Shown here in pieces: positions 30,963-46,035 of a DNA stretch of 64,000 nt. The translations under genes were made by a program, and so were the position numbers. This DNA is from Subdoligranulum variabile (GTDB lineage Bacteria; Bacillota; Clostridia; Oscillospirales; Ruminococcaceae): NCBI RefSeq assembly GCF_025152575.1, contig NZ_CP102293.1, positions 744,001-808,000 on the forward strand. Reading direction: 5' to 3'. The notes beneath the pieces were generated by a model. It ran no database searches, had not been told where the DNA came from, and saw only the letters and a program-made list of their open reading frames with translations. Positions within the stretch are counted from its first letter, which is position 1. Each line of letters starts with the position of its first letter.

Positions 30963-30984
30963 AAACGGACTCCTTGTGAAATGT

Positions 30985-31695
30985 TCAGGTTTGGGACGGG
31001 GTATCCCCCTGGGGCAGCGGCGGGGCCACAGAACCGGCCGACGCCTCCTCCTGCACGGGATAGGGTTCAAAGGCGTTCTCCTCCAGCAGGGTTTCCAGCG
31101 CAGTCTTGAGCTTGTTCTTCATATGACGCAGTGCCGTGACCTTATGCCCTGCATCGGCGATCTGCAATTCCGAAGCGGGGATAGCCGGACCGAAAACGAT
31201 GCGGATACGGCAGAACAGGTGCAGCTTGCCGTCCTTGGTATGGTAGATGATGCGGCAGGGCAGCATGTCGGCCCCCGCCGCCGCAGCAATGACAAAAGCA
31301 CCGCTTTTCAGGACCCCCAGTTTGCCGTTCTTGGTGCGGGTGCCTTCGGGGAAGATCAGCACGCCGGTGCCCTTGCGGCAGGCCGAAGTGACCCTGTCGA
31401 TGGTGGCGGTGTCCCCCTTGCCGCGCTCGATGGAGACTGCCCCCATGCAGCGCAGGAACCAGCCGATGAAAGGATTCTTGAAAAGTTCCTCTTTGGCAAG
31501 CACGCACATGCGGCGCCAGTCCATGACGGCAATGGCGATGAACACGGGGTCCAGGTTGGCGATGTGGTTGGACGCGATCACATAGGCACGGCCGTCGCGC
31601 ACGGCCTTATAGTGTTCCAGGCCGACGACCTCGATGCGCCAGACGAGCCGCGCGAGAACCCAGACGATGGGCAGAATGATCCAATACAGCAGCAT
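30985..31695 (-). CDS. plsC: 1-acyl-sn-glycerol-3-phosphate acyltransferase
   Basis: 236 residues. The catalytic HX4D motif is SNHIANLDP and the glycerophosphate-binding motif is [10 protein letters not shown]. An N-terminal helix anchors it to the membrane. It acylates lysophosphatidic acid to phosphatidic acid. The last 25 residues form a Pro/Glu-rich tail. cmk, plsC and ispH-S1 occur in this order in many Clostridia; here all are on one mRNA with short gaps. Confidence 0.94.
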
Positions 31696-32418: not shown

Positions 32419-33651
32419 TCATCCTTGGTTTTCTGCAACGGCACGCACCGCCGCCTGGGCCGTGGACCAGGCGATCTGCAGATTGTAGCCGCCGGTGCGG
32501 GCATCCACATCCAACACTTCCCCGGCGAAATACAGTCCCCCACAGCATTTGCTGGCCATGGTCTTGGGGTCCACCTCCCGCACATCCACGCCGCCTGCCG
32601 TGACCACCGCATGTTCCCGGTCGCCCAGGGCGGTGATGGGGACCTGCCAGTGTTTGCACAGCCGGACCAGCGCCTGCTTCTGCTCTTTGGTGATCTGCGC
32701 AGCCCGGGTGGCGGGGTCCACACCCCATTTTTCCACCGCCACGGGGCGCATGGAGTGAGGCAGCAGCTTTTCCAGCGCCCCCTGGGCACTGTGCCCGCCA
32801 AGGGCGGCAAAATCCCGGGTCAGCCGGTCATAGAGGGTCTTCTCGTCCAGGGCCGGCTTGAGGTCAAACTCACAGACATACCGGTGACGGGCCAGATCCT
32901 CGATGTAGGTACTGGCCGACAGCACCAGCGGTCCCGACAGGCCGAAGTGGGTGAACAGCGCCTCGCCCTGCTCCGAGAACAGCGGTTTGCCGTCACAAAG
33001 CAGCGTCAGTTTCACGTTGCGCAGTGAGAGCCCCATCATTTTGCGGCAGGCCGGGTCGGGGCTGACCAGGCTGCAGAGGCTGGGCTGCGGCGGCACAATG
33101 GCGTGTCCCGCCTGTTCAGCCAGTTTGTAGCCGCTGCCGTCGCTGCCGGTGACCGGGTAGCTGATGCCGCCGGTGGCGATCAGGGTGGCCGACGCCCGCA
33201 AAGTCTGACCGCGGTCGGTCACGGCGCCCCGGCAGACGCCTTCCTCCAGGAGCAGCTTCCTGGCGCTGCCGCGCACAAACTCTGCCTCCCGGGCATAGCT
33301 GCGCAGCGCGGCCAGCACATCCGCCGCCCGGTCACTCCGGGGAAAGACCCGGCGGCCCCGCTCGGTTTTCAGCGGCACACCGAGGGATTCAAACAGTTCC
33401 ATCGCTGCCGAAGGCGGAAAGGCATACAGGCTGGAATAAAGAAACCGGCCGTTGTGGCGCACAAAGGGCAGGAATTCCCGCACATCGCTGTCGCTGGTGA
33501 CGTTGCATCGTCCTTTTCCGGTGATGAGCAGTTTCTGTCCCGGGCCCTTGGGGTTGTGTTCCAGCACCGTGACCCGCAGCCCGCGGGCGCAGGCAGCCCC
33601 CGCCGCCATCAGGCCGGCGGCACCGCCCCCGATGATCAGAAGATCGGTCAT
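32419..33651 (-). CDS. NAD(P)/FAD-dependent oxidoreductase of the HI0933/YhiN family
   Basis: 410 residues. The FAD-binding GXGXXG motif is IIGGGAAGLMAA, followed by the family's GQKLLITGKGRCNVT and a C-terminal GGLYFAGEVLDVDARTGGYN. The substrate of this family is not well established. In Clostridia it often precedes cmk, as here. Its ATG overlaps the stop of the preceding membrane-protein gene (ATGA), so translation is coupled across the border between the glycan genes and the housekeeping genes. Confidence 0.93.
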   Translation of the reverse strand: MTDLLIIGGGAAGLMAAGAACARGLRVTVLEHNPKGPGQKLLITGKGRCNVTSDSDVREFLPFVRHNGRFLYSSLYAFPPSAAMELFESLGVPLKTERGRRVFPRSDRAADVLAALRSYAREAEFVRGSARKLLLEEGVCRGAVTDRGQTLRASATLIATGGISYPVTGSDGSGYKLAEQAGHAIVPPQPSLCSLVSPDPACRKMMGLSLRNVKLTLLCDGKPLFSEQGEALFTHFGLSGPLVLSASTYIEDLARHRYVCEFDLKPALDEKTLYDRLTRDFAALGGHSAQGALEKLLPHSMRPVAVEKWGVDPATRAAQITKEQKQALVRLCKHWQVPITALGDREHAVVTAGGVDVREVDPKTMASKCCGGLYFAGEVLDVDARTGGYNLQIAWSTAQAAVRAVAENQG

Positions 33652-35336
33652 GCAGCGTTCTCCTTTCCTTTTTTCGGTCTGCCGAACGCTGCGGCCGACA
33701 CAAACGCATAGAGCAAAAACAGCGGATGCACCGTAGCCAGGTACATGGTACTGGTGCCGATGCCAAAGCTGGACACTTCCACAAAGGCGATCATGGCACA
33801 GCGCAGCAGCGCCATGCCCAGAACTCCGAAGAGCAGCAGCCAGGGCACCACCTCGCCGGCGGTGCGGCGGCGCAGCACCCGCGGCAGCGCTGCGAAATGG
33901 CAGACCAACCCCGCCAGCAGCCCCAGCCACAACAGGGCACGATAGACCCAGGCGATGGCTTCCATCACGCCGAAGGCCATCTTCTGCCAGGGGCTGTAAT
34001 AGGGCGTATCCTTGCCCGCCTCAGCGGCGTTGTTGAGGCCGCAGTGCAGATAGGAGGACCACTGTGCAATATCCTCCTCGGTGCCGATGGAGCGCAGCGT
34101 TTCATAGGGCGCACAGTCCGCAAAGGTCACTACATGGACGATCCCCCGCACCGTCTCGGCCAGGGTAGGCGCCACATAGGATGCCTTGATGGGCTGGCTG
34201 GTGGCCGCCCGCTCCCCCGTGCGGCTGGGCAGGGTACCGTCATCGCAGGCTGCGTTGATAGCATCGGCCACACGCTGCCAGTAGGCGTCCGCCTTCTGGG
34301 GGGTATCGTAGATGCCCTCATACTGGGCGGCACGGCGGATGGCCCAGTAGAAACTGCCTGCCCGGTAATCGTCCAGCTGCGGGTCCCGGAAATCATTCTG
34401 CATCTGGAGGTCTTCCTCCAGCCAGTAGGCCAGCGGTTCCAGTTCGGGTACCGCCTCGTAGATACGGGCGCGGGCGTCGGCAGGTACCGAGAGCAGCGGT
34501 TCCTCGCTGTCGGTATCCACCCGCATCATGGCGCCCATGGCCGCGGCAAAGGAACCTTCCGAAAAATCCGACAGGGCAAACACGCCGTAATGGCTGTAAT
34601 TGAGGCCGCAGAAAGTCAGCACGGCTGCCGCCAGCACACCGTAGGGCAGGAGCTGGGCGGCGCAGCTGCGCCAGCGTCGGCCACGGACCAGCACCACCAC
34701 CATAACGACGGTGGCCACCGCCGCAAAGGGCAGCAGGAACAGCCCTGCGTCCTCGCGGTCAAGGTAGGCGCAGCTCAGACCAATGCCGGCCGCCAGCACC
34801 CAGGGCCAGCGGCGCGTTCCGGCGGCAGGTGCGCGCACGATCCGGAGCGCCGCGCCGGCCATACCGGCGAAAAAAATCAGGCAGAGCGCCGGAAAGATGT
34901 TATCCCGATAAAAGCGCAAAGTGTAGGACGCCCAGCTGGAGGGCAGAAAGGCCAGCAAGGCAAACAGCGCCAGAGTACAGATTCGGCTTGTGTTTTTTTG
35001 CCGCCACAACGGAGAAAACGCAAAGGCCGCCAGCAGCGAAGCAGCGCACCACAAGGCTGCCCCCGCCACGAGATAGGGCAGATGCAGTAGATGGAGCAGC
35101 GCCGCCCACACCGGAAAAAACATGGCCTTGGAGAGGGTCAGGTAGTCATAGGCCCCCAGCCACTCCCCTGCCGAGACGGCGTTGGCCGCGCGGAACATCA
35201 GTTCATCGTCCAGCGGCGCGCCGCCCACCCAAGTATATGCCTGCTGAAAGCCGGTGAGTGCGCAGCGCAAACACACCAGCAGTGCGACGCACAGCCAGAA
35301 GGCGCGGGAGCTCAGTTGCAGGCGGGATTTTTTCAT
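33648..35336 (-). CDS. Large polytopic membrane protein, glycan-cluster GT-C-like, 562 aa
   Basis: About ten helices in two blocks with a soluble insert (about residues 275-420). The first outer loop, TWVGGAPLDDELMFRAANAV, carries an Asp-Asp-Glu cluster placed as in GT-C glycosyltransferases. The family is not certain. It is coupled by ATGA overlaps to the GT2 gene before it and the flavoprotein gene after it. The likely role is sugar transfer at the outer membrane face. Confidence 0.75.
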   Translation of the reverse strand: MKKSRLQLSSRAFWLCVALLVCLRCALTGFQQAYTWVGGAPLDDELMFRAANAVSAGEWLGAYDYLTLSKAMFFPVWAALLHLLHLPYLVAGAALWCAASLLAAFAFSPLWRQKNTSRICTLALFALLAFLPSSWASYTLRFYRDNIFPALCLIFFAGMAGAALRIVRAPAAGTRRWPWVLAAGIGLSCAYLDREDAGLFLLPFAAVATVVMVVVLVRGRRWRSCAAQLLPYGVLAAAVLTFCGLNYSHYGVFALSDFSEGSFAAAMGAMMRVDTDSEEPLLSVPADARARIYEAVPELEPLAYWLEEDLQMQNDFRDPQLDDYRAGSFYWAIRRAAQYEGIYDTPQKADAYWQRVADAINAACDDGTLPSRTGERAATSQPIKASYVAPTLAETVRGIVHVVTFADCAPYETLRSIGTEEDIAQWSSYLHCGLNNAAEAGKDTPYYSPWQKMAFGVMEAIAWVYRALLWLGLLAGLVCHFAALPRVLRRRTAGEVVPWLLLFGVLGMALLRCAMIAFVEVSSFGIGTSTMYLATVHPLFLLYAFVSAAAFGRPKKGKENAA

Positions 35337-36247
35337 TTTTGCAGTTTCTCGATGCTTTCCACAAGATATTTCTGCTGTTTGAAGGTCAGATCCAGCAGCA
35401 GGGACAGATATTTGACCACAATGGTCAGCACGGCAAACAGACCGGCAAAGCCCACGGTGATGACGAACATCGTGGTCGTCCACCCGGCCACCGGATGTCC
35501 GGTAAAGAAAATCACAAGGGTGTACAGCAATTCGGCCAGGGCCAGCACCAGCATGCAGAGGGTGATGCCCATGCTGGTCTTGAAGCCGGCGTCGGTGTAG
35601 AGCGCCAGGCTGTCCACCGCCAGATTGAAGCGTCCCGCCTGCTTTTCGATCATCCGGCCGTCAAACACCAGGTCGGTCATTTTGAGGCCGGAGGCCGCGT
35701 AGGCAGCCTTCCGGTAGGGCAGATGGGCACTGGAAGCGTGTACCCGGTTGATGGCCCGCCGGGTGACAAGCCGGAAGGCATCGGTGCGCAGCCGGTAGGG
35801 CGAATGGGAATTGGCGTTGAAGATCTTGTAAAAAAGTTTGCTGGCGCCGCTGCGGGTGGTACGCGGGCAGACCGAGACAATGTCGTTGCCCTGGAGCGCC
35901 GTGCGGTAAGCCTCGAAAATGCAGCTTACCGGATAGGGCATCCCGGTGGAATCGAACTCGTAGACGTAATCGCCGATGGAGGCATCCAGCCCGGCGTTCA
36001 TGGCGTTTTCCAGCCCGTGGTAGAGGCTCATGTGCAGGATGGTCAGCGGGGCAGACTGCTCTTTGCCCCAGGCGCGCAGGGCTTCCACCGTGTCGTCGCT
36101 GCAGGCGTCGTCCACCGCGATGAGCTCGTACTGGGCAAAATGGGCATCCAGCTCGGCCGCGATGGTCCGGCAGAATTCCGCCGCCCGGGGGCCGTCATTG
36201 TGGAGATAGACGACCGCCGAAATAAAGTTTTTCTCTTTGGTATTCAC
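35333..36247 (-). CDS. Glycosyltransferase family 2 with C-terminal membrane helices
   Basis: 304 residues. The GT-A core has SAVVYLHNDGPRAAEF and ELIAVDDACSDDTVEAL. The metal motif is atypical: YEFDSTGMPYP, in place of a classical DxD. Two helices (about 225-280) place it at the membrane, as in ArnC/GtrB-like polyprenyl-phosphate sugar synthases. The missing second Asp could mean altered donor binding. Its ATG overlaps the stop of the FAD oxidoreductase gene by 4 bases. Confidence 0.88.
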   Translation of the reverse strand: MNTKEKNFISAVVYLHNDGPRAAEFCRTIAAELDAHFAQYELIAVDDACSDDTVEALRAWGKEQSAPLTILHMSLYHGLENAMNAGLDASIGDYVYEFDSTGMPYPVSCIFEAYRTALQGNDIVSVCPRTTRSGASKLFYKIFNANSHSPYRLRTDAFRLVTRRAINRVHASSAHLPYRKAAYAASGLKMTDLVFDGRMIEKQAGRFNLAVDSLALYTDAGFKTSMGITLCMLVLALAELLYTLVIFFTGHPVAGWTTTMFVITVGFAGLFAVLTIVVKYLSLLLDLTFKQQKYLVESIEKLQK

Positions 36248-37362
36248 AGTTCCAGCACCTCGTCCAAATCGTATACCGTGTTGATCTTGCCCGACAATAC
36301 GCTCACCAGCTTGGGTTCCTCACACATCACCCGGATCACCGTAGGCCGGGAGTCATCGATCTCGCTGGCTTTCAGGATGGGCTTCATGCTGAACAGGCTG
36401 CTGTGGTAGGCAAAGCCGTATTCCTCTTTCAGATACTTCCGGGCCAGTCGGCTCATGTAGGGCCAGGCGCTCACCGGCTTGGCCGGGCACTCGTTGCAGT
36501 TATAAAGGCTGCCCGGCGCACAGCGGCCGCCGCTCTCCTGCTGGCAAGGGAAGGTTGCCACGCTGTCGTAACTGGTTTCGTGGGGGGTGAAGGTCACGCT
36601 GGTCAGGCTGTGCAGCCCGGTCTGTCCGAAAGGCATCAGACTGAAAAACGGCCCGTCCATCACCGTGATGCCGGTGTTTTTCAGCCGCTCGTCCACTGTA
36701 CAAAGAATCAGTTCACACTTTTCGTACTTGATCTGGAAAGGCGGCAGTCCCAGCAGGGCGTGCACATCATTCACACCCGCATAGGTGGCATTGAGCAGGT
36801 AAGGCGCTTCGGCGGTGATCTCCCCCGCCGTCACCCGCCATGCTCTGCCCACGCGCTCGATGCGTTCCGGCTTATGGTTGTACTGTACCGTTACGTTGGG
36901 CTGTTTTGCCAGCTGTTCCAGGAACCACTTCTTCAGCACCTGGGCGTCATAGGTATATTCTGTCGTCAGGAAAGCGCCGTCACACAGGCCGGGATTGAAA
37001 TACTTGGTGGGGGCCACGTCGTCGCAGCGGATCCCCGCTGCCCCACAAAAGCGGCGGAATTCCGCCGCGTTGGTCCAGGAAAAATGGGCGCTGGTGGCGT
37101 AGATCTGGTCGAATTCGGTGTACAGGCAGAAACCGTAATCCCGGCAGAACCGTTCAAAATAATGGGCGCTCTTGATGGCCGTGGAGTAGCTGCGCGGGTA
37201 ATGATACCCCATATGCACCCGCGCCTGGTTGATATAGGTGGCCCGCATGAAAGGCGCCGGGTCCCGTTCCAGCACCAGGACGCGCTGGCCCGCCGCACCG
37301 CATTTCTGCGCCGCATACAGGCCGTACAGTCCGGCTCCCAGGATGATTTTGTCGTAGTTCAT
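36244..37362 (-). CDS. FAD-dependent oxidoreductase (DAO-like) of the glycan cluster
   Basis: 372 residues. The dinucleotide motif IILGAGLYGLYAAQKCG is at the N-terminus and a late SVLSGKINTVYDLDEV closes the FAD site. QARVHMGYHYPRS after the FAD domain resembles proteins found in surface-polysaccharide clusters. It may oxidise a sugar or an amine; the substrate is unknown. Four cysteines lie close together near GGRCAPGSLYNCNECPAKP and could bind a metal. Start 37362 has AAAGGA upstream. Confidence 0.82.
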   Translation of the reverse strand: MNYDKIILGAGLYGLYAAQKCGAAGQRVLVLERDPAPFMRATYINQARVHMGYHYPRSYSTAIKSAHYFERFCRDYGFCLYTEFDQIYATSAHFSWTNAAEFRRFCGAAGIRCDDVAPTKYFNPGLCDGAFLTTEYTYDAQVLKKWFLEQLAKQPNVTVQYNHKPERIERVGRAWRVTAGEITAEAPYLLNATYAGVNDVHALLGLPPFQIKYEKCELILCTVDERLKNTGITVMDGPFFSLMPFGQTGLHSLTSVTFTPHETSYDSVATFPCQQESGGRCAPGSLYNCNECPAKPVSAWPYMSRLARKYLKEEYGFAYHSSLFSMKPILKASEIDDSRPTVIRVMCEEPKLVSVLSGKINTVYDLDEVLEL

Positions 37363-37449
37363 GAAAGATCCTTTCTGCTGCGCAGACCGGCCCGGACAGA
37401 ACACAGCGCTCTTCCCTGTGCGGCGGTTTTCTGCCGCCTGCCCAAAGTG

Positions 37450-38250
37450 TCACGGATTGTACTTGCCCGCCATGGCAGCCAGCAGGACTTTCAGCAGATC
37501 GCTGTTGCCCTTGAAGCCGGTTATCTTGGTGGGCGTTTTGCCGGTGGCCGGGTAGGCCCGGGTAACCGGGACCTCACAGGCGCGCATTCCCAGCTGGGTG
37601 GCGCGGATGCTCAGGTAGGCCAGCAGCTCATACCCCTGGAAGACGTCCCGCAGCGGGCGCACTTCGGGATGGGTCAGGTATTCCCGGCTGTAGGCACGGT
37701 AAGCATTGGTGGTGTCCGTAAACCACTGGTGAGCCGCCAGGCTGACCAGCGGCGCATGGATGAGGCGCACTGCCGCATAGCGGATGGGCGGCGTATTGAT
37801 GGCGTGGCCGCCGCTGCGGAACCGGCTGCCCTGGACCAGGTCGTACCCGGCCTGCAGCTTCTCGATAAAGCGGGGCACATCCTCGATGGAATCCTTGTTG
37901 TTGCCGTCGATGGTCAGAATTCCCTTGTAGCCCCGGTCCAGCGCGAAATAGATGCCCATGCGCAGCTGGGCCCCCTGCTTGCCGGGGCCAGTCTTGGTGA
38001 GCAGCGTATTGACGCCGTAGAGGGCCAGAGTTTCGGGGTTCATGCTGCCGTCGGTGGAACCGCCGTCACAGATCACAATATCGCACAGCTTGTCCACCCC
38101 GGCCCGCTGGGCACGGCCCAGTTCGGTCAGGATGCGGGCGCCCTCGTTGATGACGGGGATCAGCAGGCAGTAATCGCTCAGCCGGGCTTCCAGTTCGGCG
38201 GCACGGTAATCCGGCACACCGGAGAGGTCATGGCGTTCATATTCGATCAT
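37450..38250 (-). CDS. Glycosyltransferase family 2
   Basis: 266 residues with the GT-A motifs LLIPVINEGARILTELG, DIVICDGGSTDGS and the metal site LTIDGNNKDSIED. No membrane helix is evident, so it probably works peripherally on the inner face. YCLLIPVINEG resembles dolichyl-phosphate mannose synthase-like enzymes. Its ATG overlaps the stop of the isomerase gene by 4 bases, and an 87-base gap separates it from the oxidoreductase that follows. Confidence 0.88.
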   Translation of the reverse strand: MIEYERHDLSGVPDYRAAELEARLSDYCLLIPVINEGARILTELGRAQRAGVDKLCDIVICDGGSTDGSMNPETLALYGVNTLLTKTGPGKQGAQLRMGIYFALDRGYKGILTIDGNNKDSIEDVPRFIEKLQAGYDLVQGSRFRSGGHAINTPPIRYAAVRLIHAPLVSLAAHQWFTDTTNAYRAYSREYLTHPEVRPLRDVFQGYELLAYLSIRATQLGMRACEVPVTRAYPATGKTPTKITGFKGNSDLLKVLLAAMAGKYNP

Positions 38251-39035
38251 GCAAAAACCTCCGCAACGTAGTCCAGCGTCCGCCGGACAGTGTCCAGATC
38301 GGTGTTGGCCATCTCCACCGAGACATAGCCGCGATACCCCACAGCCCCCAGCAGCAGCGCCAGTTCCTTGTGTTCCGGGCGCTTCTGGATGGGCGCAAGG
38401 CCCGGCTCACTGATATGCACATGGCTGACGTACTGCAGGTCATCCACAAAATCCTGCAGCCGTTCTCCCTGGGCCAGCATGGTGGAAAGATCCAGATTCA
38501 CCGCCAGACCGGGATTGTCCAGCCGTTTGACCAGGGCAAAGGCTTCCGCGGTGCCGTTGAGATAGTTGGTATACACCGGCGGGTTGGCCTCGATGGCCAG
38601 CCGCACGCCGTACCGCGCCGCCAGATTGCCGGCCTGCATGAAGAAGGATTCCGCCAGAGCATCCTCGGCCCCCAGCGGCCGCATCCGGTTCTTGGGGCAG
38701 CCGAAGACCAGCGACGGGCAGTTCAGACTGTGGGCAAACTGAAAAGCCCCCGCCGTATAATCCAGCAGTTCCTCACTCTGGGCCGCATCAAAAATATTGC
38801 CCTTCTGGCCGTACCAGATACTCTGCAGGCTGGGCACTTCAAAGCCCCAGCGGTTTTTCAGGTAGCCGCCGAAGAGAGCGGCGGAGGTCAGATTCTCATA
38901 GGGCTCCGCCGGAAAGATCCGGGTGGGGGCGATCTCCAGGCCGGTGAATCCGGCCTGCTGCATCGCGGTGTAGACCGCTTCGTCGTCATTTTTATGCCAT
39001 GCAATGTTGGAGATGGCCAGCTTACATACGGGCAT
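38247..39035 (-). CDS. Sugar phosphate isomerase/epimerase (xylose isomerase-like TIM barrel)
   Basis: 262 residues. Metal ligands of the AP-endonuclease-2/IolE-like superfamily appear in LAIEANPPVYT (Glu), VNLDLSTML (Asp), VSHVHISEPG (His) and VSVEMANTD (Glu). It probably interconverts keto and aldo or C3/C4 epimers of a sugar used in the glycan. Start 39035 has AAAGGAG upstream and overlaps the end of the SDR gene by 14 bases. It is not similar in length or motifs to the repair enzyme at 4716. Confidence 0.85.
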   Translation of the reverse strand: MPVCKLAISNIAWHKNDDEAVYTAMQQAGFTGLEIAPTRIFPAEPYENLTSAALFGGYLKNRWGFEVPSLQSIWYGQKGNIFDAAQSEELLDYTAGAFQFAHSLNCPSLVFGCPKNRMRPLGAEDALAESFFMQAGNLAARYGVRLAIEANPPVYTNYLNGTAEAFALVKRLDNPGLAVNLDLSTMLAQGERLQDFVDDLQYVSHVHISEPGLAPIQKRPEHKELALLLGAVGYRGYVSVEMANTDLDTVRRTLDYVAEVFA

Positions 39036-39966
39036 CGTCCCGCTCCTTTCCCGGCTGCAAAAAATTCCGTATATCGTCCAGTTCTTCCTGTTCGGTGCAG
39101 AGATAGGCCCCGCTGCCGCCCAGAAGCCGCGCGTACTTGCTGCGCAGGTCGTAATCAAAGGGAGGCTTGGGCAGTTCGTTATGCCAGTCGGTTTTGCCGG
39201 TCACCGCGGTATACACCCTTTCCGCCGAGAGGGGCGGTGTGCAGAGGTGAAGCAGATGCAGCCCCGCCGCCCGCGCGGTACCAATATCATTCCACAGGCG
39301 GCCCAGGTTGTAGAACTGGTAGCGGCTGCGGGAATCGGTGAAAGCCAGGGCGTTGAAGTCATTGCCGGCAAAGAAGTCCCGCAGTGCGGCAGCATTTACG
39401 GCGCCGTTGAGCTTGTAAAAACCGTTGTCCGCCAGGGTATAGCCGTCCCGCACCAGCGCCGATTTCCGGGAAAGTTCGTCGTATTTTTCCGGCTTGAGCA
39501 TGGACGGCGTGATGGTGCGCAGATCGTACAGGAAGTTTTTCTTGAGTCCCTTGCCATACAGCGCCGGCAGACGCACAATAAGGGCATCGGGGAAATCCTC
39601 CCGCACCCAATGCTCCAGCTGCAGCCGGTTGCGGCCGTAAGCCGAAAGGTTTCCGGTATCGGGTTGGTCGTCCTCATCCTTGCCGCGGCTGTCGCCATAG
39701 ACGGCAATGCTGGAGATCAGTACCAGCGCTTTGGGGGCGATTTTGCGCAGATTTTCCCGGGCGGCCGCCATGACCGCCAGGTCCGCCTCGGGGTCGGCGT
39801 TGGCCAGGAACATAGCCGCCGGCACCCCCGCGTACACACAAAGATCGGGGCGGCTGCCATACTGTACCGCCACGTCCTTGCTGTGGCAGACCGCCGCAAA
39901 ATCGTGGGCGGCCATCAGATTGCCGCCCACAAATCCGGTGGATCCTACCAGAAGATCATTGTGCAC
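39022..39966 (-). CDS. NAD-dependent epimerase/dehydratase-like protein with altered active site
   Basis: 314 residues from a GTG at 39966, which starts directly before the Rossmann motif LLVGSTGFVGGN. An ATG at 39990 is in frame but lies only about 8 nt from the predicted transcript start and has no site. The SDR strand is ALVLISSIAVYGDS. The expected YxxxK reads SAYGRNRLQLE, so the catalytic Lys appears replaced by Arg. It is the first gene of the long glycan/housekeeping operon. Substrate unknown. Confidence 0.8.
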   Translation of the reverse strand: MHNDLLVGSTGFVGGNLMAAHDFAAVCHSKDVAVQYGSRPDLCVYAGVPAAMFLANADPEADLAVMAAARENLRKIAPKALVLISSIAVYGDSRGKDEDDQPDTGNLSAYGRNRLQLEHWVREDFPDALIVRLPALYGKGLKKNFLYDLRTITPSMLKPEKYDELSRKSALVRDGYTLADNGFYKLNGAVNAAALRDFFAGNDFNALAFTDSRSRYQFYNLGRLWNDIGTARAAGLHLLHLCTPPLSAERVYTAVTGKTDWHNELPKPPFDYDLRSKYARLLGGSGAYLCTEQEELDDIRNFLQPGKERDDARM

Positions 39967-40003
39967 ACGCTTCGCCCCATTTCTACACATTCATACAGAA
40001 TAC

Positions 40004-40032
40004 ATTATAGCCGATTGCCATATAAAAAGCAA
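40004..40032 (-). promoter_or_regulatory. Promoter of the long glycan/housekeeping operon
   Basis: Minus strand TTGCTT (40032-40027), 17-nt spacer, TATAAT (40009-40004). The -35 lies in the U-tract of the HisH terminator. Confidence 0.68.
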
Positions 40033-40060
40033 CGCCCCGCGTCGGGCTGGACGCGGGGCG
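40024..40060 (-). terminator. Terminator after the HisH-like gene
   Basis: An 11-bp perfect stem, CGCCCCGCGTC/GACGCGGGGCG, with a 6-nt loop and TTGCTTTTT on the minus strand. Confidence 0.88.
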
Positions 40061-40065
40061 AAGGC

Positions 40066-40713
40066 TTATTTTTGACAAATGTTTATAAATTGACTGATGA
40101 TCGACAATCCCACCGGACCGGATTTTTCGGGATGGAACTGACAGCCCACCACCGGCCCATGGGCAGCGACCGCACAGACGCTGCGTCCGCCGTAGCGGGT
40201 ATCGGCCAGGCGGTCTGCCTCATCGGCGGGCTTGGCCTCGTAGCTGTGGATGAAGTAGCACTCCTGGCCGGGGGTCACCTCCGCCAGCACGGTACCGGCA
40301 AAGTCGGCATGGCCGCCCGCCGGAAACAGCGGATCCCAGCTGATGTGGGGCACCTTCTGGGGATGGCCCTGCACATCGGTATCGGGAATTTTTACCACCC
40401 GGCCGGGGATCAGACCCAGACCCGGGTAGGTGCCGAATTCCTCCGATTCATCAAAGAGCATCTGCATTCCCAGACAGATGCCCAGCAAAGGGGTTCCCTC
40501 CGCGGCCTTTTGCCGGATAACATCCACGAGGCCCAGCCGCTCCAGGCCGGCCATGCCGTCCCGGAAAGCGCCCACGCCCGGCAGTACCAGCGCTTCGGCG
40601 GCTCGCACATCCGCCGGGCTGCTGGTCAGCAATGTCTCGGCCCCGCAGTGGGCAAAGGCATTCTGCACGCTGCGCAGGTTGGACAGTCCGTAGTCAATTA
40701 CCGTGACCTTCAT
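40066..40713 (-). CDS. hisH: HisH-like glutamine amidotransferase of a sugar-amidination module
   Basis: 215 residues. The class I amidotransferase triad is visible: Cys in LLGICLGMQMLF, His in GCQFHPEKSG and its partner Glu. It releases ammonia from glutamine and channels it to the HisF-like subunit. The gene neighbours are a HisF2-type synthase and WbpG-type amidotransferases, not histidine genes. So it is best read as the HisH2 subunit that serves acetamidino-sugar synthesis. Its start overlaps the HisF stop by 4 bases. Confidence 0.88.
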   Translation of the reverse strand: MKVTVIDYGLSNLRSVQNAFAHCGAETLLTSSPADVRAAEALVLPGVGAFRDGMAGLERLGLVDVIRQKAAEGTPLLGICLGMQMLFDESEEFGTYPGLGLIPGRVVKIPDTDVQGHPQKVPHISWDPLFPAGGHADFAGTVLAEVTPGQECYFIHSYEAKPADEADRLADTRYGGRSVCAVAAHGPVVGCQFHPEKSGPVGLSIISQFINICQK

Positions 40714-41477
40714 ACGCTGCGCACCTCCACGCCTCCGGCCCGGATCTCCTCTTTCAGCTCCGGGACCGTTTCCTTTTCATAATGCAGCACCGCCGCACAC
40801 GCCACTGCATCGGCCCCTGCCCGGGCCGCCTCCACGATGTCATCGCCGCAGCCCACACCGCCGCCGCAGATCACCGGGATATGCACCGCACTGGTCACCG
40901 CCTGGATCAGCTCCAGGTCCATGCCGCGCTGGAGTCCTTCGTTGTCCACGCTCATGAGCAGGATCTCCCCTGCCCCCAGTGCTTCGCCACGCTTGGCCCA
41001 CTCCACCACATCGTACCCGGAATGGGCACGGCCGTTGTCGTAGTAGGCCTCCCACTTGCCGGGCCAGGTCCGGCTGCGCTTGGCCTGGATGGACAGCACC
41101 ATGCACTGGCTGCCGAAGGCCTCGGCGATCTCGGTGATGAGCTCGGGGCGCTTGATGGCCGCCGTATTCACCGCCACCTTGTCAGCGCCCATGGAGAGCA
41201 GGTGGCGCACATCTTCCACACTGCGCACGCCGCCGCCCACACAGACCGGGATGAATACGTCATCCACCGTCTTGCGCACGATGTCGCTGAGGTTGTTGCG
41301 GTTATACAGGCTGGCTACAATGTCGATATACAACAGCTCGTCGATGCCCTGCTCATAGTAGCGCCTGGCGAACTGGTTGGGGTCGCCCAGTTTGCGCAGC
41401 CCCTCCATCTGGATGCCCTTGACGAGGTTGGTGTCCTTGACATCCAGCCGCGCGATCAGGCGTATTTTGTCTGCCAT
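40710..41477 (-). CDS. HisF-like synthase subunit (WbpI/HisF2/WbuZ type)
   Basis: 255 residues, a (beta/alpha)8 barrel. The N-terminal RLDVKDTNLVKGIQMEGLRK is typical of the HisF2 group of surface-glycan clusters rather than histidine HisF. D12 is kept. The position of the second catalytic Asp of HisF (normally in IDAKR) reads SIQAKR, so it is Q131. The later phosphate-binding loop CGGGVGCGDD is intact. The family partner forms ammonia with HisH for amidotransferase reactions. A role in histidine synthesis is unlikely. Confidence 0.88.
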   Translation of the reverse strand: MADKIRLIARLDVKDTNLVKGIQMEGLRKLGDPNQFARRYYEQGIDELLYIDIVASLYNRNNLSDIVRKTVDDVFIPVCVGGGVRSVEDVRHLLSMGADKVAVNTAAIKRPELITEIAEAFGSQCMVLSIQAKRSRTWPGKWEAYYDNGRAHSGYDVVEWAKRGEALGAGEILLMSVDNEGLQRGMDLELIQAVTSAVHIPVICGGGVGCGDDIVEAARAGADAVACAAVLHYEKETVPELKEEIRAGGVEVRSV

Positions 41478-41501
41478 GTGTTTGCCTCCGATTCAACGGG
41501 A

Positions 41502-42875
41502 TCAGATCTCGTGGTGGGTACCCTTGGGATCGCCCCAGAGCACCTCGCTGTCGCCCTCGTAGGGGGTGTGACGCAGCTTCCACATGTTGTCCTCCCACTT
41601 CCACAGGTGGGGCGAACGGAACCGGTCGGCCAGATGCATGAAGTAGGCCCGGTCCATCTTGGGCTGCTCGAACAGCTGGGACGCATGGGGGAAATGCTGC
41701 TTGTCGATGGAGAGATACTGCATGATCTCCTTCTCGAAACGATCGGGATACTCGCCGTCGAATTTCTTGCAGAGCGCCTTGCCTTCCTCCAGGGTGATCT
41801 CCTCGTTGCGGATCTCCTGGGCAGCGTCGTAGGTAGTGCGGCCGATGCCGTACTTGATGTAGGTGGTGTAATAGAAGAAATCGTCGATCTTGTCGTCGAT
41901 GGAGTTGTACTTGGAGTAGGTGCCCTGGGTACGCTCCGGTGCCGGACGGAAGCCACCGTGCTCCACCGAGTAGTAGTAGGCACCCTGGGGATGCCATTTC
42001 TCGTAGTAGCCCAGGTAGCGCACCTGGATGTGGTTTTTCTCCAGATTGGAGGTCTCGGAGGGCAGATAGATGGCCAGATCGGCCTTGTCGATCTTGTAGT
42101 CCTCCTCCAGCTGGCGCAGACTCACGCCGCCCAGATAGATGTGATCGTAATCGTTCACCGCGAAGAAATGCTCATCCCGCAGTGCCGAGTTGTTGTCGGC
42201 GATGGGATTGCCGAACTCGGCCTCGTTCTCGCCGTAGAAGACCAGAGGAATGCCGAACTTGGCCGCCATCTTGGGCGCCAGCTGCTTCTGGCCCAGGATA
42301 AAGGGCTGGAAGGGATGGAACAGGTTCTCGGTGGCCAGGCGGGTCAGCAGGCGGTGGGTCATGCCGTTGGGCGTGCACAGATAGTTGTCAAAGCCCGCAT
42401 GGATCCAGGCCTGCATATTTTCCCAGCCCCAGGGGGTGTAGATATGGGGTGCCCAGGTGACGGTCAGCGGATGCATGCCGTACTTGTACTTGAGCAGGTG
42501 CGCGGCATAGAAGCTGTCCTTGCCGCCGGAGCCCGGCACCAGGCAGTCGTAGGAGCCGTCGTTCTTGCGGTACTCGTCGCAGAGTTCCCGCAGTTCCTTC
42601 TCCCGCAGCGCCCAGTCGATATGACCGTTGGCCTTGTTGTGGCAGGCGTGGCAGGCATCGCAGACGCCGTCCTCCTGGATGACCATCGTCTTCTTGATGG
42701 AATGGATGGTGTGCTCGAACTCATAGCAGGAGTTGGGCTTCTGGTTGCTCATGACGCATTCCTTGCAGAACTGCACATGCTTGGGCAGGCCGTAGTAGGC
42801 CTCCAGCTGATCCTCCGGGATATCCGGGGCGTATTTGCTGTAATCAATGTCCACGTAACGGGGTAATTTTTCCAT
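41502..42875 (-). CDS. N-acetyl sugar amidotransferase (WbpG/WbuX-like), copy 2
   Basis: 457 residues. The PP-loop is VPGSGGKDSFYAA, which adenylates the acetamido carbonyl. Two cysteine pairs (FCKECVMS and CDACHACH) form a zinc site. Together with the HisF/HisH proteins encoded next it should turn an N-acetyl into an acetamidino group on a nucleotide or lipid-linked sugar. Start 42875 has a GGAG site; a TTG at 42890 is less likely. A promoter at 42968 and a hairpin at 42908 precede it. Confidence 0.92.
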   Translation of the reverse strand: MEKLPRYVDIDYSKYAPDIPEDQLEAYYGLPKHVQFCKECVMSNQKPNSCYEFEHTIHSIKKTMVIQEDGVCDACHACHNKANGHIDWALREKELRELCDEYRKNDGSYDCLVPGSGGKDSFYAAHLLKYKYGMHPLTVTWAPHIYTPWGWENMQAWIHAGFDNYLCTPNGMTHRLLTRLATENLFHPFQPFILGQKQLAPKMAAKFGIPLVFYGENEAEFGNPIADNNSALRDEHFFAVNDYDHIYLGGVSLRQLEEDYKIDKADLAIYLPSETSNLEKNHIQVRYLGYYEKWHPQGAYYYSVEHGGFRPAPERTQGTYSKYNSIDDKIDDFFYYTTYIKYGIGRTTYDAAQEIRNEEITLEEGKALCKKFDGEYPDRFEKEIMQYLSIDKQHFPHASQLFEQPKMDRAYFMHLADRFRSPHLWKWEDNMWKLRHTPYEGDSEVLWGDPKGTHHEI

Positions 42876-42907
42876 ATTTCTGCACTCCAATCCGGCGTTT
42901 CCAAATA

Positions 42908-42953
42908 CAAAAAAGGCGCCGTCCGTATGGCGATGCCAAACGGACGGCGCCTT
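42908..42953 (-). terminator. Terminator or attenuator before amidotransferase copy 2
   Basis: A 12-bp perfect stem, GGCGCCGTCCGT/ACGGACGGCGCC, with a 13-nt loop and TTTTTTT on the minus strand. It lies between the promoter at 42968-42996 and the start codon at 42875. Confidence 0.88.
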
Positions 42954-42967
42954 TGCCGTTCCAGCGT

Positions 42968-42996
42968 ATTATAGCACAACTTGCCCCGTTGTGCAA
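42968..42996 (-). promoter_or_regulatory. Promoter of the amidotransferase copy 2-HisF-HisH operon
   Basis: Minus strand TTGCAC (42996-42991), 17-nt spacer, TATAAT (42973-42968), inside the gap after the Dabb gene. The predicted start (about 42961) leads straight into the hairpin. Confidence 0.72.
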
Positions 42997-43014
42997 GAGG
43001 GGCGGCATTTTTTG

Positions 43015-43317
43015 TCAGATCGTAAAATCCAGGCAGCTGCGCACCTTGGTGTAGGGGCGCACCTTGCTGTCGGCCACCGCCACATGGGCGGGATGCACCG
43101 AGTAGGCCTTGAGGGCCTCCTCATCGGTGAAGGTGCAGTCCAGCATCAGGTCTGCGGTGGAGCTGGCCAGGCAGTCAGCCTGCACGTAGATGGACTCCAG
43201 TCCCGGGATCTTGCCGGCGAGGCCTTCCAGTCCCTCCTTGATGCCTGCCTTGACGGCGGCTTTTTCCTCAGCGCTCAGTTCATCCTTCAGCGTCCAGAGA
43301 ATAATGTGTTTGGTCAT
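43015..43317 (-). CDS. Dabb-family stress-responsive A/B barrel protein
   Basis: 100 residues. It starts MTKHIILWTLKDELSAEEKA, the Dabb signature (KHIVLFKLK...), and contains LMLDCTFTDEEALKAY and a HPAHVAVA stretch. These small dimeric alpha+beta barrel proteins have unclear functions. Its ATG overlaps the stop of the preceding 72-aa gene by 4 bases, and it lies in the operon of amidotransferase copy 1. A link to sugar amidination is only contextual. Confidence 0.88.
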   Translation of the reverse strand: MTKHIILWTLKDELSAEEKAAVKAGIKEGLEGLAGKIPGLESIYVQADCLASSTADLMLDCTFTDEEALKAYSVHPAHVAVADSKVRPYTKVRSCLDFTI

Positions 43318-43532
43318 ACGTTGCTTTCCCCTTTCTGTGTCAGCCCGTAGGTCTTGTACCAGGACAGCAGTTCGCTCAAGGTAAGTTTGCGGGCAAACAG
43401 CTGGCGATAGGTGGCAGTCTTCTCCTTGCCCTGGGCTTTGAGCGCTGCCATCTTGTCCGCCGTGCGGGTGTACTCCGTCTCTACCGCCGCCTGCATGGCG
43501 CGATAGGCGGTCAGTTGTTCCTGATCATTCAT
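43314..43532 (-). CDS. Small hypothetical protein, 72 aa
   Basis: A soluble, charged, mainly helical protein (MNDQEQLTAYRAMQAAVETE) with a central TRTADKMAALKAQGKEK coiled-coil-like stretch. It is coupled by a 4-base overlap to the Dabb gene after it and follows amidotransferase copy 1 by 3 nt. The end of the amidotransferase gene supplies its ribosome site. No family is recognised. Tight coupling argues that it is real. Confidence 0.7.
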   Translation of the reverse strand: MNDQEQLTAYRAMQAAVETEYTRTADKMAALKAQGKEKTATYRQLFARKLTLSELLSWYKTYGLTQKGESNV

Positions 43533-43535
43533 GCT

Positions 43536-44654
43536 TTACTTCTGCTCCCAGATGGGATCTTTCAGGACCCACTCGCCGCACTCGTTCTTTTCGAACAGGT
43601 CGCGGTTGTAGAACTTGTCCATAATGGCCCAGAACTCGCTCTCGGTGTAGCCGCAGAACTCACAGAAATCCCGCACACAGAGGGGATCCAGCTTGCCGTC
43701 CCGCTCCTTGATGATGGGAATGGCTTCCTCACGGGTCATCATGCCGTAGCGGATATAGCGGGCGGTGTAGTCGGTGGCAGCCGCATGGCCGAACTTGGGA
43801 TACTTCAGCCAGGAATGCACCAGGTAGGCGCGGGAATCGATCTGGTCGAAGTTTTCGGCGTGATGGGTGCGGTCCCACTCATGAGTCAGATCGTGGAAAC
43901 CGTGGGCCTTGGCGATCTGGTAGTTCTTGTAGCTGTTCCAGGGTACAAAGTAGCTCATATAGAAGGGATCCAGCTTGGCACGCTCCTCGGCACTGGGAGC
44001 TAGGGTCAGGCTCAGGTCATTCTCGGTGACGCCGTCGCCCACCAGCTCCTCCATGGGGAAGCCCACGGCCACGCCGTTCTCGATCTGGTCCATGGCAGAG
44101 TAGGTTTCCTTGTCGGCATTGCCGCCGTACTCAAAGCTGACGTTCTCGCCGTAGCAGAGCATAGGGGTGTTGAACTTGGCCGCCATGTGCAGCGGGAAGG
44201 TGTAGATCAGGCGGTCCACATACCAGGTGGGCTTGCCGTACTTTTCAAAGAACTTGCGCATGAGGATCTTCTGCGCCTTGATGTTGGGTTTGCAGGAGAT
44301 GATCGTGCAGCCGAACTCCTCGCTGATGTTCTTCAGGTTGTGGATACCCGCCTGGGTCATGGGGAAGTTGTCCTCCACGCTGAAGAGGATGGGGTTCATA
44401 TGCATGACTTCCTTGAGCATCCAGACCTGGAAGTGGCTGTCCTTGCCGCCGGACACCGCCACGGCACAGTCATAGCCGCCGGGGCCGTTCATGCCGCGGT
44501 ATTTGTTGCAGTAAGCCTCGAACTCCTTGAAACGGGCGTCCCAGTCCACATTCTTGCGGTTTTCGTAGTGGCGGCAGGCGCTGCACACCCCCTCGGCGTC
44601 AAAGGTAATGCCGGGACGGGTGTCGGGCATCGTACATTTTTTGCAGTAACGCAT
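43536..44654 (-). CDS. N-acetyl sugar amidotransferase (WbpG/PseA-like), copy 1
   Basis: 372 residues. The N-terminus RYCKKCTMPDTRPGI and GVCSACRHYE give the CxxC-CxxC zinc ribbon. The PP-loop is AVSGGKDSHFQVW. Length and motifs match WbpG/PseA-type enzymes that convert acetamido to acetamidino groups in surface sugars, with ammonia from HisH/HisF partners. It is about 85 residues shorter than copy 2 and diverged from it, so the two probably act on different sugars or positions. It has its own promoter at 44729. Confidence 0.93.
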   Translation of the reverse strand: MRYCKKCTMPDTRPGITFDAEGVCSACRHYENRKNVDWDARFKEFEAYCNKYRGMNGPGGYDCAVAVSGGKDSHFQVWMLKEVMHMNPILFSVEDNFPMTQAGIHNLKNISEEFGCTIISCKPNIKAQKILMRKFFEKYGKPTWYVDRLIYTFPLHMAAKFNTPMLCYGENVSFEYGGNADKETYSAMDQIENGVAVGFPMEELVGDGVTENDLSLTLAPSAEERAKLDPFYMSYFVPWNSYKNYQIAKAHGFHDLTHEWDRTHHAENFDQIDSRAYLVHSWLKYPKFGHAAATDYTARYIRYGMMTREEAIPIIKERDGKLDPLCVRDFCEFCGYTESEFWAIMDKFYNRDLFEKNECGEWVLKDPIWEQK

Positions 44655-44728
44655 AGTTGTTCTCCTTTATCGTGCAGTCCGCCGCCGGGCGGCGGGTACA
44701 AGGGCCGGACGGCCTGAATTCTCCTTGT

Positions 44729-44757
44729 ATTGTACCCCATTTGCCGCAGCGGCGCAA
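44729..44757 (-). promoter_or_regulatory. Promoter of amidotransferase copy 1
   Basis: Minus strand TTGCGC (44757-44752), 17-nt spacer, TACAAT (44734-44729). The leader includes a GC-rich hairpin at about 44682-44698. Confidence 0.65.
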
Positions 44758-44799
44758 GGGCACCGGCGTAAAATCTGTATTTTGCCCGGTGGAGCGCTA

Positions 44800-44828
44800 T
44801 TGCATTTTCGGCCCGTGTATTTTACAAT
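44800..44828 (+). promoter_or_regulatory. Promoter of the DUF362 ferredoxin gene
   Basis: TTGCAT (44800-44805), 17-nt spacer, TACAAT (44823-44828), 38 nt before the ATG. It is divergent from the amidotransferase promoter. Confidence 0.75.
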
Positions 44829-44866
44829 AAAAAAGAGCAAGACGACATCAAACAGGAGGCGTATCC

Positions 44867-45973
44867 ATGTCTGCATCGAAAGTTTATTTCACCGACCTGC
44901 GCACTTCGTTCAATGAAAACCTGCCCCAGAAGCTGGAACGGCTCATCAAGACCGCCGGCATCGGCCAGATTGATTTCACCAACAAGTACGTCGCCATCAA
45001 GATCCATTTCGGCGAGCCCGGCAACCTGGCCTATCTGCGGCCCAACTACGCCGCCGTGGTGGTCAAGGTGATCAAGGAACTGGGCGGCAAGCCTTTCCTC
45101 ACCGACTGCAACACCCTGTATGTGGGCGGCCGCAAGAACGCCCTGGACCATCTGGACACCGCGTATGTGAACGGTTTTTCCCCCTTCTCCACCGGCTGCC
45201 ACGTCATCATTGCCGATGGCCTGAAAGGCACCGATGAGGAGCTCGTCCCCGTGGAGGGTGGCACCTACGTGAAGGAGGCCAAGATTGGCCGTGCCATCAT
45301 GGACGCCGATGTGTTCATCACGCTGTCCCACTTCAAGGGCCATGAATCTACCGGTTTCGGCGGGGCGCTGAAAAACATCGGCATGGGCTGCGGTTCCCGC
45401 GCCGGCAAGATGGAGATGCACAGCGCCGGCAAACCTTACGTGAAGCAGGAACTCTGCGTGGGCTGCGGCCGCTGCGTCAAGATCTGCGCCCACGATGCCC
45501 CCCACATCGTGGACCGCAAGTCCAGCATCGACCAGAACAAGTGCGTGGGCTGCGGCCGCTGCATCGGCGTCTGCCCCACCGACGCCGTCCGCGCCGCCGA
45601 GGACGAGAGCAACGACATTCTGAACTGCAAGATTGCCGAATACAGCAAGGCTGTTGTCAGCGGCCGTCCCCAGTTCCACATCAGCCTGGTCATCGATGTG
45701 TCCCCCTACTGCGACTGCCATGCCGAAAACGATGTGCCCATCGTCCCCGATGTGGGCATGTTCGCCAGCTTCGACCCGGTGGCCCTGGACCAGGCCTGTG
45801 TGGATGCTGTCAATCAGCAGCCGGTCATGCCGGGCAGCCATCTGGCCGAGATGCCTCAGGAGCACCACGACCACTTCACCGACTCCAGCCCCGCCACCAA
45901 CTGGAAGAGCTGCCTGGAACACGCGGAGAAGATCGGCGTGGGCACCCGCGAGTATGAACTGATCAAGATCTGA
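44867..45973 (+). CDS. DUF362 domain protein with two 4Fe-4S clusters
   Basis: 368 residues. The DUF362 domain spans most of the protein; VYFTDLRTSF and HFGEPGNLAYLRPNY are visible. A ferredoxin insert near residues 190-245 has CVGCGRCVKICAHDAPH and CVGCGRCIGVCPTDAV, giving two CX2CX2CX3C sites. The arrangement is widespread in anaerobes; it is a cytoplasmic redox protein of unknown partner. AACAGGAGG lies upstream. It has its own promoter and terminator, so it is monocistronic. Confidence 0.95.
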   Translation: MSASKVYFTDLRTSFNENLPQKLERLIKTAGIGQIDFTNKYVAIKIHFGEPGNLAYLRPNYAAVVVKVIKELGGKPFLTDCNTLYVGGRKNALDHLDTAYVNGFSPFSTGCHVIIADGLKGTDEELVPVEGGTYVKEAKIGRAIMDADVFITLSHFKGHESTGFGGALKNIGMGCGSRAGKMEMHSAGKPYVKQELCVGCGRCVKICAHDAPHIVDRKSSIDQNKCVGCGRCIGVCPTDAVRAAEDESNDILNCKIAEYSKAVVSGRPQFHISLVIDVSPYCDCHAENDVPIVPDVGMFASFDPVALDQACVDAVNQQPVMPGSHLAEMPQEHHDHFTDSSPATNWKSCLEHAEKIGVGTREYELIKI

Positions 45974-45986
45974 GTTTTTCCTCCAT

Positions 45987-46035
45987 AAAAAAGCTCCTGT
46001 GTACCGGAAGTATTCCGGATACACAGGAGTTTTTT
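45987..46035. terminator. Bidirectional terminator
   Basis: CTCCTGTGTA/TACACAGGAG outer stem (10 bp) with an inner CCGGA/TCCGG stem, A-run on the left and T-run on the right, between convergent genes. Confidence 0.9.

Follow-up and report, generated by a model that had tools for sequence, protein, structure and literature searches.

Two predicted N-acetyl sugar amidotransferases, one with HisF2 and HisH2 partners and a nitrogen-gene leader element, in a gut Ruminococcaceae genome

Gene content of the locus

The window analysed here, 64,000 nucleotides of Subdoligranulum variabile contig NZ_CP102293.1, covers bases 744001–808000 of a one-contig genome of 3,244,954 bases. It contains a set of genes predicted to turn N-acetyl groups of a sugar into acetamidino groups. 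An earlier note on this DNA had named four of them, two large amidotransferases with a HisF-like and a HisH-like gene, and all four proved real, on the minus strand and at the positions given there. Both large proteins are N-acetyl sugar amidotransferases (NASATs), as that note had proposed. SHORT (43536..44654, 372 aa) and LONG (41502..42875, 457 aa) score 346.5 and 340.2 bits against TIGR03573 (cut-off 203.2 bits), are the sole matches to this model in the genome (E up to 0.01) and are 25.5% identical to each other. HISH (40066..40713) is a HisH2 glutaminase with the Cys nucleophile and HPE motif, and passes the HisH model TIGR01855 with 191.8 bits (cut-off 105.4). HISF (40710..41477) is a barrel of the HisF2/WbuZ type with Gln at the HisF Asp130 position; it scores 274.3 bits against both the WbuZ model (TIGR03572) and the HisF model, slightly under each cut-off (299.7 and 294.55).

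Read along the minus strand, the genes are SHORT, a 72-codon open reading frame, a Dabb gene, LONG, HISF, HISH, a short-chain dehydrogenase/reductase (SDR), a sugar isomerase-like gene, a family 2 glycosyltransferase (GT2), an FAD oxidoreductase, a second GT2 and a membrane protein. A terminator-like hairpin stands at the end of the LONG triad (LONG, HISF and HISH; hairpin at 40033..40060), and a similar one follows HISH in 16 of 27 Gemmiger-type stretches, some of them from overlapping loci. We use Gemmiger-type for the named loci whose LONG is 94–100% identical to that of the window, which are mostly labelled Gemmiger, and the window is placed in this genus. The block from SDR to membrane protein (33648..39990, minus), kept in many Gemmiger-type loci, likely consists of glycan genes separate from the triad. 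The earlier note had left out the two genes between SHORT and LONG. The 72-codon frame (43314..43532, minus, function unassigned) overlaps by 4 bases the Dabb (stress-responsive A/B barrel) gene (43015..43317, minus; PF07876, 73.6 bits), which among the fetched loci is found only in those of Gemmiger type. Genes were called with our own gene caller, trained on 16 window genes. Further along the window, 29043–31070 on the minus strand is one long open reading frame with, as judged by eye, an IspH/LytB-like part followed by S1-type repeats.

Linkage of the two amidotransferases to HisF, HisH and legionaminic acid genes

Among 80 LONG loci from named genomes, 73 have HisF as the very next gene after LONG. 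Four of the seven others end at or near a contig edge, and a fifth has HisF beside a LONG truncated by the start of the contig; the remaining two are L142, where HisF and HisH precede LONG, and L099, where neither was found, the one clear exception. Outside the window's genus both partners are present in all 15 LONG loci. Asp130, which we take to be a catalytic residue of HisF, is replaced throughout the 85 HisF2 rows from LONG loci by Gln (68) or Glu (17), or by Gln in 57 and Glu in 16 of the 73 distinct rows. The window's HisF2 has Gln and the genome's own HisF has Asp at this position. The Cys nucleophile and the HPE motif are both present in 84 of 88 HisH2 rows. A role of the pair in histidine synthesis was rejected because the genome has its own hisH-hisA-hisF at 2.588–2.590 Mb and because the Asp130 position of HisF2 is changed. 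The earlier note had reserved that role for a genome whose his operon lacked hisH and hisF; here a separate set stands elsewhere.

LONG and its aligned relatives have the SGGKDS PP-loop and the CxxC...CxxC tetracysteine. LONG matches PDB 8wex from Legionella with 650.9 bits, and its assignment to the 8wex fold type is by sequence only. In a passage of PMC3766260, Legionella ORF 28 is given as a homologue of ptmG, which makes CMP-Leg5Am7Ac, a derivative of legionaminic acid (Leg); 8wex may be the product of this ORF 28. Among 23 distant LONG loci (LONG less than 78% identical), 12 have at least three of five Leg-type genes within the fetched flanks, including Geotalea, Acetobacterium paludosum and Azospirillum halopraeferens. 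Taken together, LONG, HisF2 and HisH2 probably form a glutamine-fed NASAT triad of the legionaminic kind, with an activity predicted from these likenesses.

The nonulosonate genes that the earlier note had suggested looking for are present, and so the genome does have other genes of surface-sugar synthesis, whose absence would have counted against that note. LegB (500 bits, cut-off 475), LegC (447.5, 420), NeuB_NnaB (459.3, 399.65) and NeuC (377.9, 235.9) all exceed their NCBIfam cut-offs and lie at three places (about 0.57–0.58 and 1.05 Mb), apart from the window. The NeuB that passes NeuB_NnaB is below the PseI cut-off; two further NeuB-family matches are weak (43.5 and 38 bits), and the cytidylyltransferase gave only a weak PseF match (61.8 bits, cut-off 205.7). 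LegH was not identified among the genome's matches, in which no search aimed at it was made. The genome thus appears to hold most of the Leg pathway.

A survey of 247 genomes of the family found NASAT matches (E up to 1e-40) in 46. Matches were classed by hand from match length (1035–1038 or 1083–1095 bases), a classification backed by sequence identity only for the fetched loci. SHORT occurs in 45 genomes (two matches partial) and LONG in 28, and the 46th genome has neither type. SHORT is present in all 28 LONG genomes (one partial match), so that no LONG genome is without it. NeuB (E up to 1e-60) was found in 69 of the 247 genomes, comprising 44 of the 45 with SHORT and 25 of the 202 that lack it (Fisher p 1.4e-29, which among related species is only a guide). 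In 19 genomes SHORT and NeuB share a contig at a distance of 3.6–21.9 kb (distances compiled by hand); two one-contig Gemmiger genomes have them 170 and 213 kb from each other. SHORT heads LegC-PtmE-NeuB-NeuC-...-NeuA operons in two loci (L066, L069) and stands after Leg genes in other taxa (L153, L165); in Peptococcaceae BICA1-7 (L153) Leg genes, SHORT, LONG, HisF and HisH come in a row. The labels PtmE, Gfo and NeuA, here and below, are by position and similarity. Phylum-wide samples were sparse, with SHORT in 4 and LONG in 1 of 398 genomes, the window's own counted in each.

HisF and HisH are absent from the fetched stretches of all 24 SHORT loci outside the window's genus. In the 17 SHORT-only genomes, full-length HisF-type matches number two at most and are lacking in eight, and HisH (E up to 1e-20) was not found in ten. 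Four SHORT genomes that are 96–100% complete (G081, G101, G183 and G242) have neither a full-length HisF nor a HisH match, so SHORT is probably not a user of the HisHF pair. Three of these four gave partial matches of up to 33 bits to the HisA/HisF model, some above the Pfam cut-off of 23.6, and G081 none; genomes with genuine his genes give similar partial matches. One SHORT-only genome, G017, has HisA and HisF matches and no HisH at E up to 1e-20. We regard SHORT as probably a separate amidotransferase of the Leg pathway, predicted to work independently of HisHF.

The AlphaFold model of SHORT (predicted local distance difference test score 86.1) has 8wex as its best PDB match, with template modelling scores of 0.84/0.82 and far ahead of all others; among the far weaker Foldseek matches are an NH3-dependent NAD synthetase and asparagine synthetase B. 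SGGKDS and the metal-binding CxxC...CxxC are invariant in 16 aligned sequences, and across the fetched loci SHORT is 72–97% identical to the window's copy.

Several points weigh against tying SHORT to legionaminic acid. One SHORT genome (G095) has no NeuB match. The NeuB test is not Leg-specific: the NeuBs of G183, which has SHORT, are 34–37% like that of the window's genome, to which those of other Leg clusters fetched from the family are at least 63% alike. Because the genomes are related, counts from them are not independent, and LONG and SHORT themselves guided the choice of loci.

Two plasmids carry NASATs. In human gut Bacteroidota, plasmid p2BBH45 of Alistipes indistinctus (L185, NZ_AP023050.1) has a cytidylyltransferase, a neuB-family gene, neuC, a SHORT-like NASAT and a flippase in a row, which suggests that nonulosonate genes are carried on a plasmid. 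The NASAT, 48% identical to SHORT, follows neuC, and no HisH or HisF is annotated in the 16 kb shown. On plasmid p5 of Azospirillum brasilense (L187) a NASAT directly follows a NeuB-family gene and a glutamine-hydrolysing asnB, and no HisF or HisH is annotated in the stretch; asnB might be an alternative ammonia source.

The earlier note had read the locus as a single module in which one HisHF pair serves both amidotransferases, with two amidinated sugars or positions. That one pair feeds both enzymes and that these act on different sugars of the adjoining glycan genes we hold to be quite improbable. Closeness of the genes in Gemmiger speaks for it, SHORT being in the fetched stretch of 16 of 28 Gemmiger-type LONG loci. 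By linkage and co-occurrence, however, the triad is one unit and SHORT another: HisF adjoins LONG, and SHORT elsewhere lives without HisHF, including in near-complete genomes. G. gallinarum (L042) and an uncultured Gemmiger (L041) have other genes separating SHORT from LONG, and L042 also has extra genes between HISH and SDR. Two different sugars are not the simplest reading, because SHORT and LONG both track the Leg pathway. A single operon running from SHORT down to T611 was likewise judged unlikely, given a terminator-like site behind HISH, a promoter-like site upstream of LONG and gene insertions where the blocks meet.

Among the fetched genera outside that of the window, SHORT and LONG never share a 20-kb stretch. 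In other genera SHORT is often near MBOAT, SGNH-like, Wzx-like and LegB genes (the SGNH and Wzx labels are by eye, with no Pfam match), and LONG often has genes for ANTAR and glutamine synthetase nearby. Among the 29 family loci whose LONG is 78–86% identical, 22 have GlnA upstream and 21 have ANTAR directly upstream. A NASAT tree separates LONG (24 rows) from SHORT by a branch with support 100/99. It is used for this split only, because three plasmid rows and L142 sit on long branches, one plasmid row falls inside SHORT, and the SHORTs of L153, L165 and L166, missed by the gene caller, are absent, as are PtmG, PseA and WbpG.

If SHORT and LONG act on one sugar, they may do so at two positions, SHORT amidinating the C5 or C7 N-acyl group of Leg and nitrogen-gated LONG the other, to give 5,7-bis-acetamidino Leg. 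Leg has N-linked groups at both carbons, according to a passage of PMC7371886. The nesting of LONG within SHORT in the family, the row of genes in BICA1-7 and the low identity between the two enzymes all fit this reading. A requirement of LONG for SHORT in general was rejected for distant relatives, since 16 of 23 distant-LONG genomes, whose completeness is not known, have no second NASAT at E up to 1e-40; LONG as sole NASAT match there argues against two positions. No sequence feature shows position choice, and no bis-acetamidino nonulosonate was found in the literature searched, though the term "diacetimido" occurs in print. On balance we consider two positions possible, at rather less than an even chance.

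Leader element of LONG and its carriers

A promoter-like site precedes the triad (42968..42995, minus; TATAAT at 42973–42968 with TGTGC before it). It is followed by a hairpin with an ANTAR-type hexaloop (42944..42959, minus), read from 42959 to 42944 as stem arm ACGGC, loop AAAGGC and stem arm GCCGT. The 3' half of this hairpin doubles as the 5' arm of a terminator hairpin with a T-run (42909..42954, minus) that ends near 42909, and the two together make a putative leader attenuator, supported by folding, leader alignment and covariation. Folding of the nascent RNA predicts the hexaloop hairpin for the first 30–40 nt and the terminator from at least 50 nt. The loop pattern AANGNN is kept in 17 of 17 aligned leaders (of 24 of Gemmiger type), and nine of the 14 consensus pairs show at least one change on both sides with pairing kept. 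In 22 of the 24 Gemmiger-type leaders a -10-like site stands ahead of the hexaloop hairpin.

In a site scan of the window, 3 promoter-like sites were found against 3.3 in shuffles, and 16 terminator-like sites against 9.5; given these shuffled counts, lone sites of either kind mean little without conservation. When -10 box, hexaloop hairpin and terminator were all required together, the 64-kb window had a single match, at 42954; a further 40 kb of the same genome and five block-shuffled windows had none. An Rfam scan of window 33000–46000 gave no match up to E 1.

Which genes carry this element was asked with a strict definition (AANGNN hexaloop closed by C-G, stem of at least four pairs, overlapping terminator, no promoter demanded), applied upstream of every called gene in family loci (n = 1516), with one single-letter shuffle of each upstream as control. 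The element was found at 86 of 1516 genes and at 0 of 1516 shuffled upstreams. Carriers are LONG (36 of 60), GlnA (15 of 24), PyrG (12 of 21), GSIII (8 of 20) and 15 of 869 other genes. The 15 are all nitrogen-related by sequence, comprising one asparagine synthase, one SAICAR synthetase, five GATase-II proteins, three glutamate synthases, three AmtB-PII fusions and two aminotransferases (seven checked by Pfam, the rest named by likeness to those). No strict element was found at AsnA (0/10), SHORT (0/43), the LegB-type SDR, LegC, PtmE, NeuB, NeuC, Gfo1, Gfo2 and NeuA taken together (0/138), or the neighbouring glycan genes of family loci. Among LONG leaders of named loci and the window, 19 of 24 of Gemmiger type and 15 of 29 of other family type carry it. 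Since the strict element is limited to LONG and nitrogen-related genes, sugar amidination looks wired into a nitrogen regulon, and the LONG triad looks to be under a leader element common to nitrogen genes.

In two of these loci (L103:4446-6098 and L110:9411-11141) the gene with the hexaloop-terminator element upstream encodes an AmtB with a C-terminal P-II domain.

With a promoter demanded, -10 box and hexaloop are present in 28 of 31 LONGs without GlnA upstream and in 1 of 22 with it, and 18 of the 22 glnA leaders of GlnA-ANTAR-LONG loci have both. A strict either/or rule, by which LONG has its own element or belongs to a glnA operon, was rejected: it held for the promoter only, and several LONGs in glnA operons also carry the hairpin and terminator directly before them. 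In a Subdoligranulum variabile record fetched after this rule had been seen, glnA-ANTAR lies about 40 kb from LONG, and LONG carries the element. Two records of this species (OY725857.1 and OY725868.1; L200–L202) are labelled plasmids 23 and 34, with pyrG, glnA and LONG on 23 and Leg-type genes and SHORT on 34; they have the look of chromosomal fragments entered as plasmids.

There is also evidence against a nitrogen switch. None of the 17 distant LONG leaders has the strict element, and 19 of 53 family LONG leaders are without it. Only 8 of the 22 glnA leaders above have -10 box, hexaloop and terminator together, the glnA of glnA-ANTAR pairs in the S. variabile record and in Monoglobus has no element, and neither has the pyrG leader of the window's own genome. 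A looser scan (-10 box and hexaloop, no terminator) found 102 of 1463 genes, some without a nitrogen link, among them 1 of 42 SHORT, 1 of 6 DUF362, 1 of 20 SGNH-like and 23 of 829 other genes. Taken by itself, the hexaloop stem is not unusual: GGCAANGNNGCC occurs five times in the window, against 2.27 expected. A second hairpin was seen in 4 of 101 elements, against 3.15 expected by chance. In a passage of PMC3369931, ANTAR targets are described as having hexaloops with A1 and G4 and a second hairpin overlapping a terminator, mostly at nitrogen genes, and a single stem-loop bound the ANTAR domain of EutV much worse. The window's leader has the A1/G4 hexaloop and the overlap with an intrinsic terminator and lacks the two hairpins; it is not a canonical ANTAR target, because only one hairpin is visible.

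The single hairpin, together with its start about 10–20 nt from the -10 box, would also suit a mere promoter-proximal terminator or an RNA-stability hairpin, with the hexaloop incidental and no nitrogen switch. This is unlikely in our view: the overlap of an AANGNN hexaloop with a terminator is found at nitrogen genes and at LONG, whereas SHORT, the Leg-type genes, the neighbouring glycan genes and the shuffles all lack it.

The carrier set also bears on a nitrogen-source switch, by which ammonia-fed SHORT and glutamine-fed LONG-HisHF would make the same acetamidino group under different nitrogen supply. Ammonia- and glutamine-dependent asparagine synthetases offer an analogy, SHORT exists without HisHF, the leader of LONG has its element in common with glutamine synthetase, glutamate synthase and AmtB genes, and an NH3-dependent NAD synthetase is among the weak structural matches of SHORT, as is asparagine synthetase B. 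Against this, the set holds glutamine consumers such as CTP synthase alongside assimilating genes, so that the sign of the nitrogen response is unclear, and the deep divergence of SHORT and LONG also fits different substrates. Such a switch seems to us a tentative proposal, somewhat on the doubtful side.

Proposed pathway and comparison with known systems

From gene identities, linkage, co-occurrence and the leader element with its carriers, all read from the sequence, we infer a scheme that extends to transcription units, substrate, product, activity, ammonia source, ANTAR as regulator and the direction of the nitrogen response. Its core, which we think rather probable, is that two separate Leg acetamidino units are joined here, a nitrogen-gated LONG-HisF2-HisH2 and a HisHF-independent SHORT acting on the same sugar. 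HisH2 would free ammonia from glutamine, and the HisF2 barrel, its HisF catalytic residue lost, would channel it to LONG. LONG, with ATP, would activate the N-acetyl oxygen of Leg or CMP-Leg and exchange it for NH, giving the acetamidino group. Transcription of the triad is predicted to start just upstream of the hexaloop hairpin. A nitrogen-responsive ANTAR antiterminator may hold this hairpin and let RNA polymerase read through; left unheld, the hairpin would give way to the overlapping terminator and the triad would be off. SHORT would be a second Leg amidotransferase with no need of HisHF, probably using free ammonia or another donor and standing outside the nitrogen leader control, and nitrogen-gated LONG may add to, or substitute for, its amidination of the same sugar. 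The fullest version is doubtful: SHORT would make a basal acetamidino form, a LONG-HisF2-HisH2 switched by a one-hairpin ANTAR-type leader would carry it to 5,7-bis-acetamidino Leg, and gut Ruminococcaceae would in this way tune the positive charge of their surface Leg to the supply of nitrogen.

An acetamidino group turns a neutral N-acetyl into a cation on a sialic-acid-like surface sugar. If the scheme is true, surface charge and host recognition of a common gut genus would follow nitrogen supply, and no link of surface-sugar amidination to a nitrogen regulon was found among the open-licence papers searched. A sugar amidotransferase independent of HisHF would, if true, raise the question of ammonia source for NASATs at large, and an ANTAR-type leader with a single hairpin would broaden what is known of a much-studied RNA switch.

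Like the leaders recognised by EutV, NasR and AmiR, that of LONG has an A1/G4 hexaloop in a hairpin over a leader terminator and belongs to a set of nitrogen genes, and an ANTAR gene lies in the glnA operon of relatives. Unlike those targets it has one hairpin, not two, and a sugar-amidination triad is not named among ANTAR targets in the relevant part of PMC3369931.

Both enzymes resemble WbuX of E. coli O145 and the WbpG-HisH2-HisF2 set of Pseudomonas aeruginosa O5, NASATs with tetracysteine and PP-loop. WbpG presumably has its HisH2 and HisF2 partner genes in Pseudomonas, and LONG likewise has adjoining HisH- and HisF-like partners; in the loci compared, the three-gene NASAT-HisH-HisF set is found with LONG and not with SHORT. 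WbpG makes ManNAc3NAmA and WbuX FucNAm, as given in part of PMC10607449. Here, unlike in those systems, the linked pathway is that of legionaminic acid, and there is a second NASAT without a tie to HisHF. Segment 55–69 of LpNASAT (8wex), an enzyme of Legionella pneumophila lipopolysaccharide, is missing in other NASATs, according to a passage of the same paper. LONG has an insert between its cysteine pairs, where this segment lies; SHORT is without the insert and reaches only 99 bits against LpNASAT.

Two acetamidino synthases in one organism have a parallel in Campylobacter jejuni, with PtmG for Leg and PseA for pseudaminic acid (Pse), as a passage of PMC13317340 reports. Here the two are predicted from their sequences. 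In C. jejuni they serve two different nonulosonates, whereas the only strong NeuB of the window's genome scores under the cut-off for PseI. Among known systems the NASAT-HisH-HisF acetamidino set comes closest, in this case in a legionaminic form. Within the literature searched, two features appear new: a second NASAT in the same pathway, predicted to be independent of HisHF, and a putatively glutamine-fed triad under the leader element of nitrogen genes.

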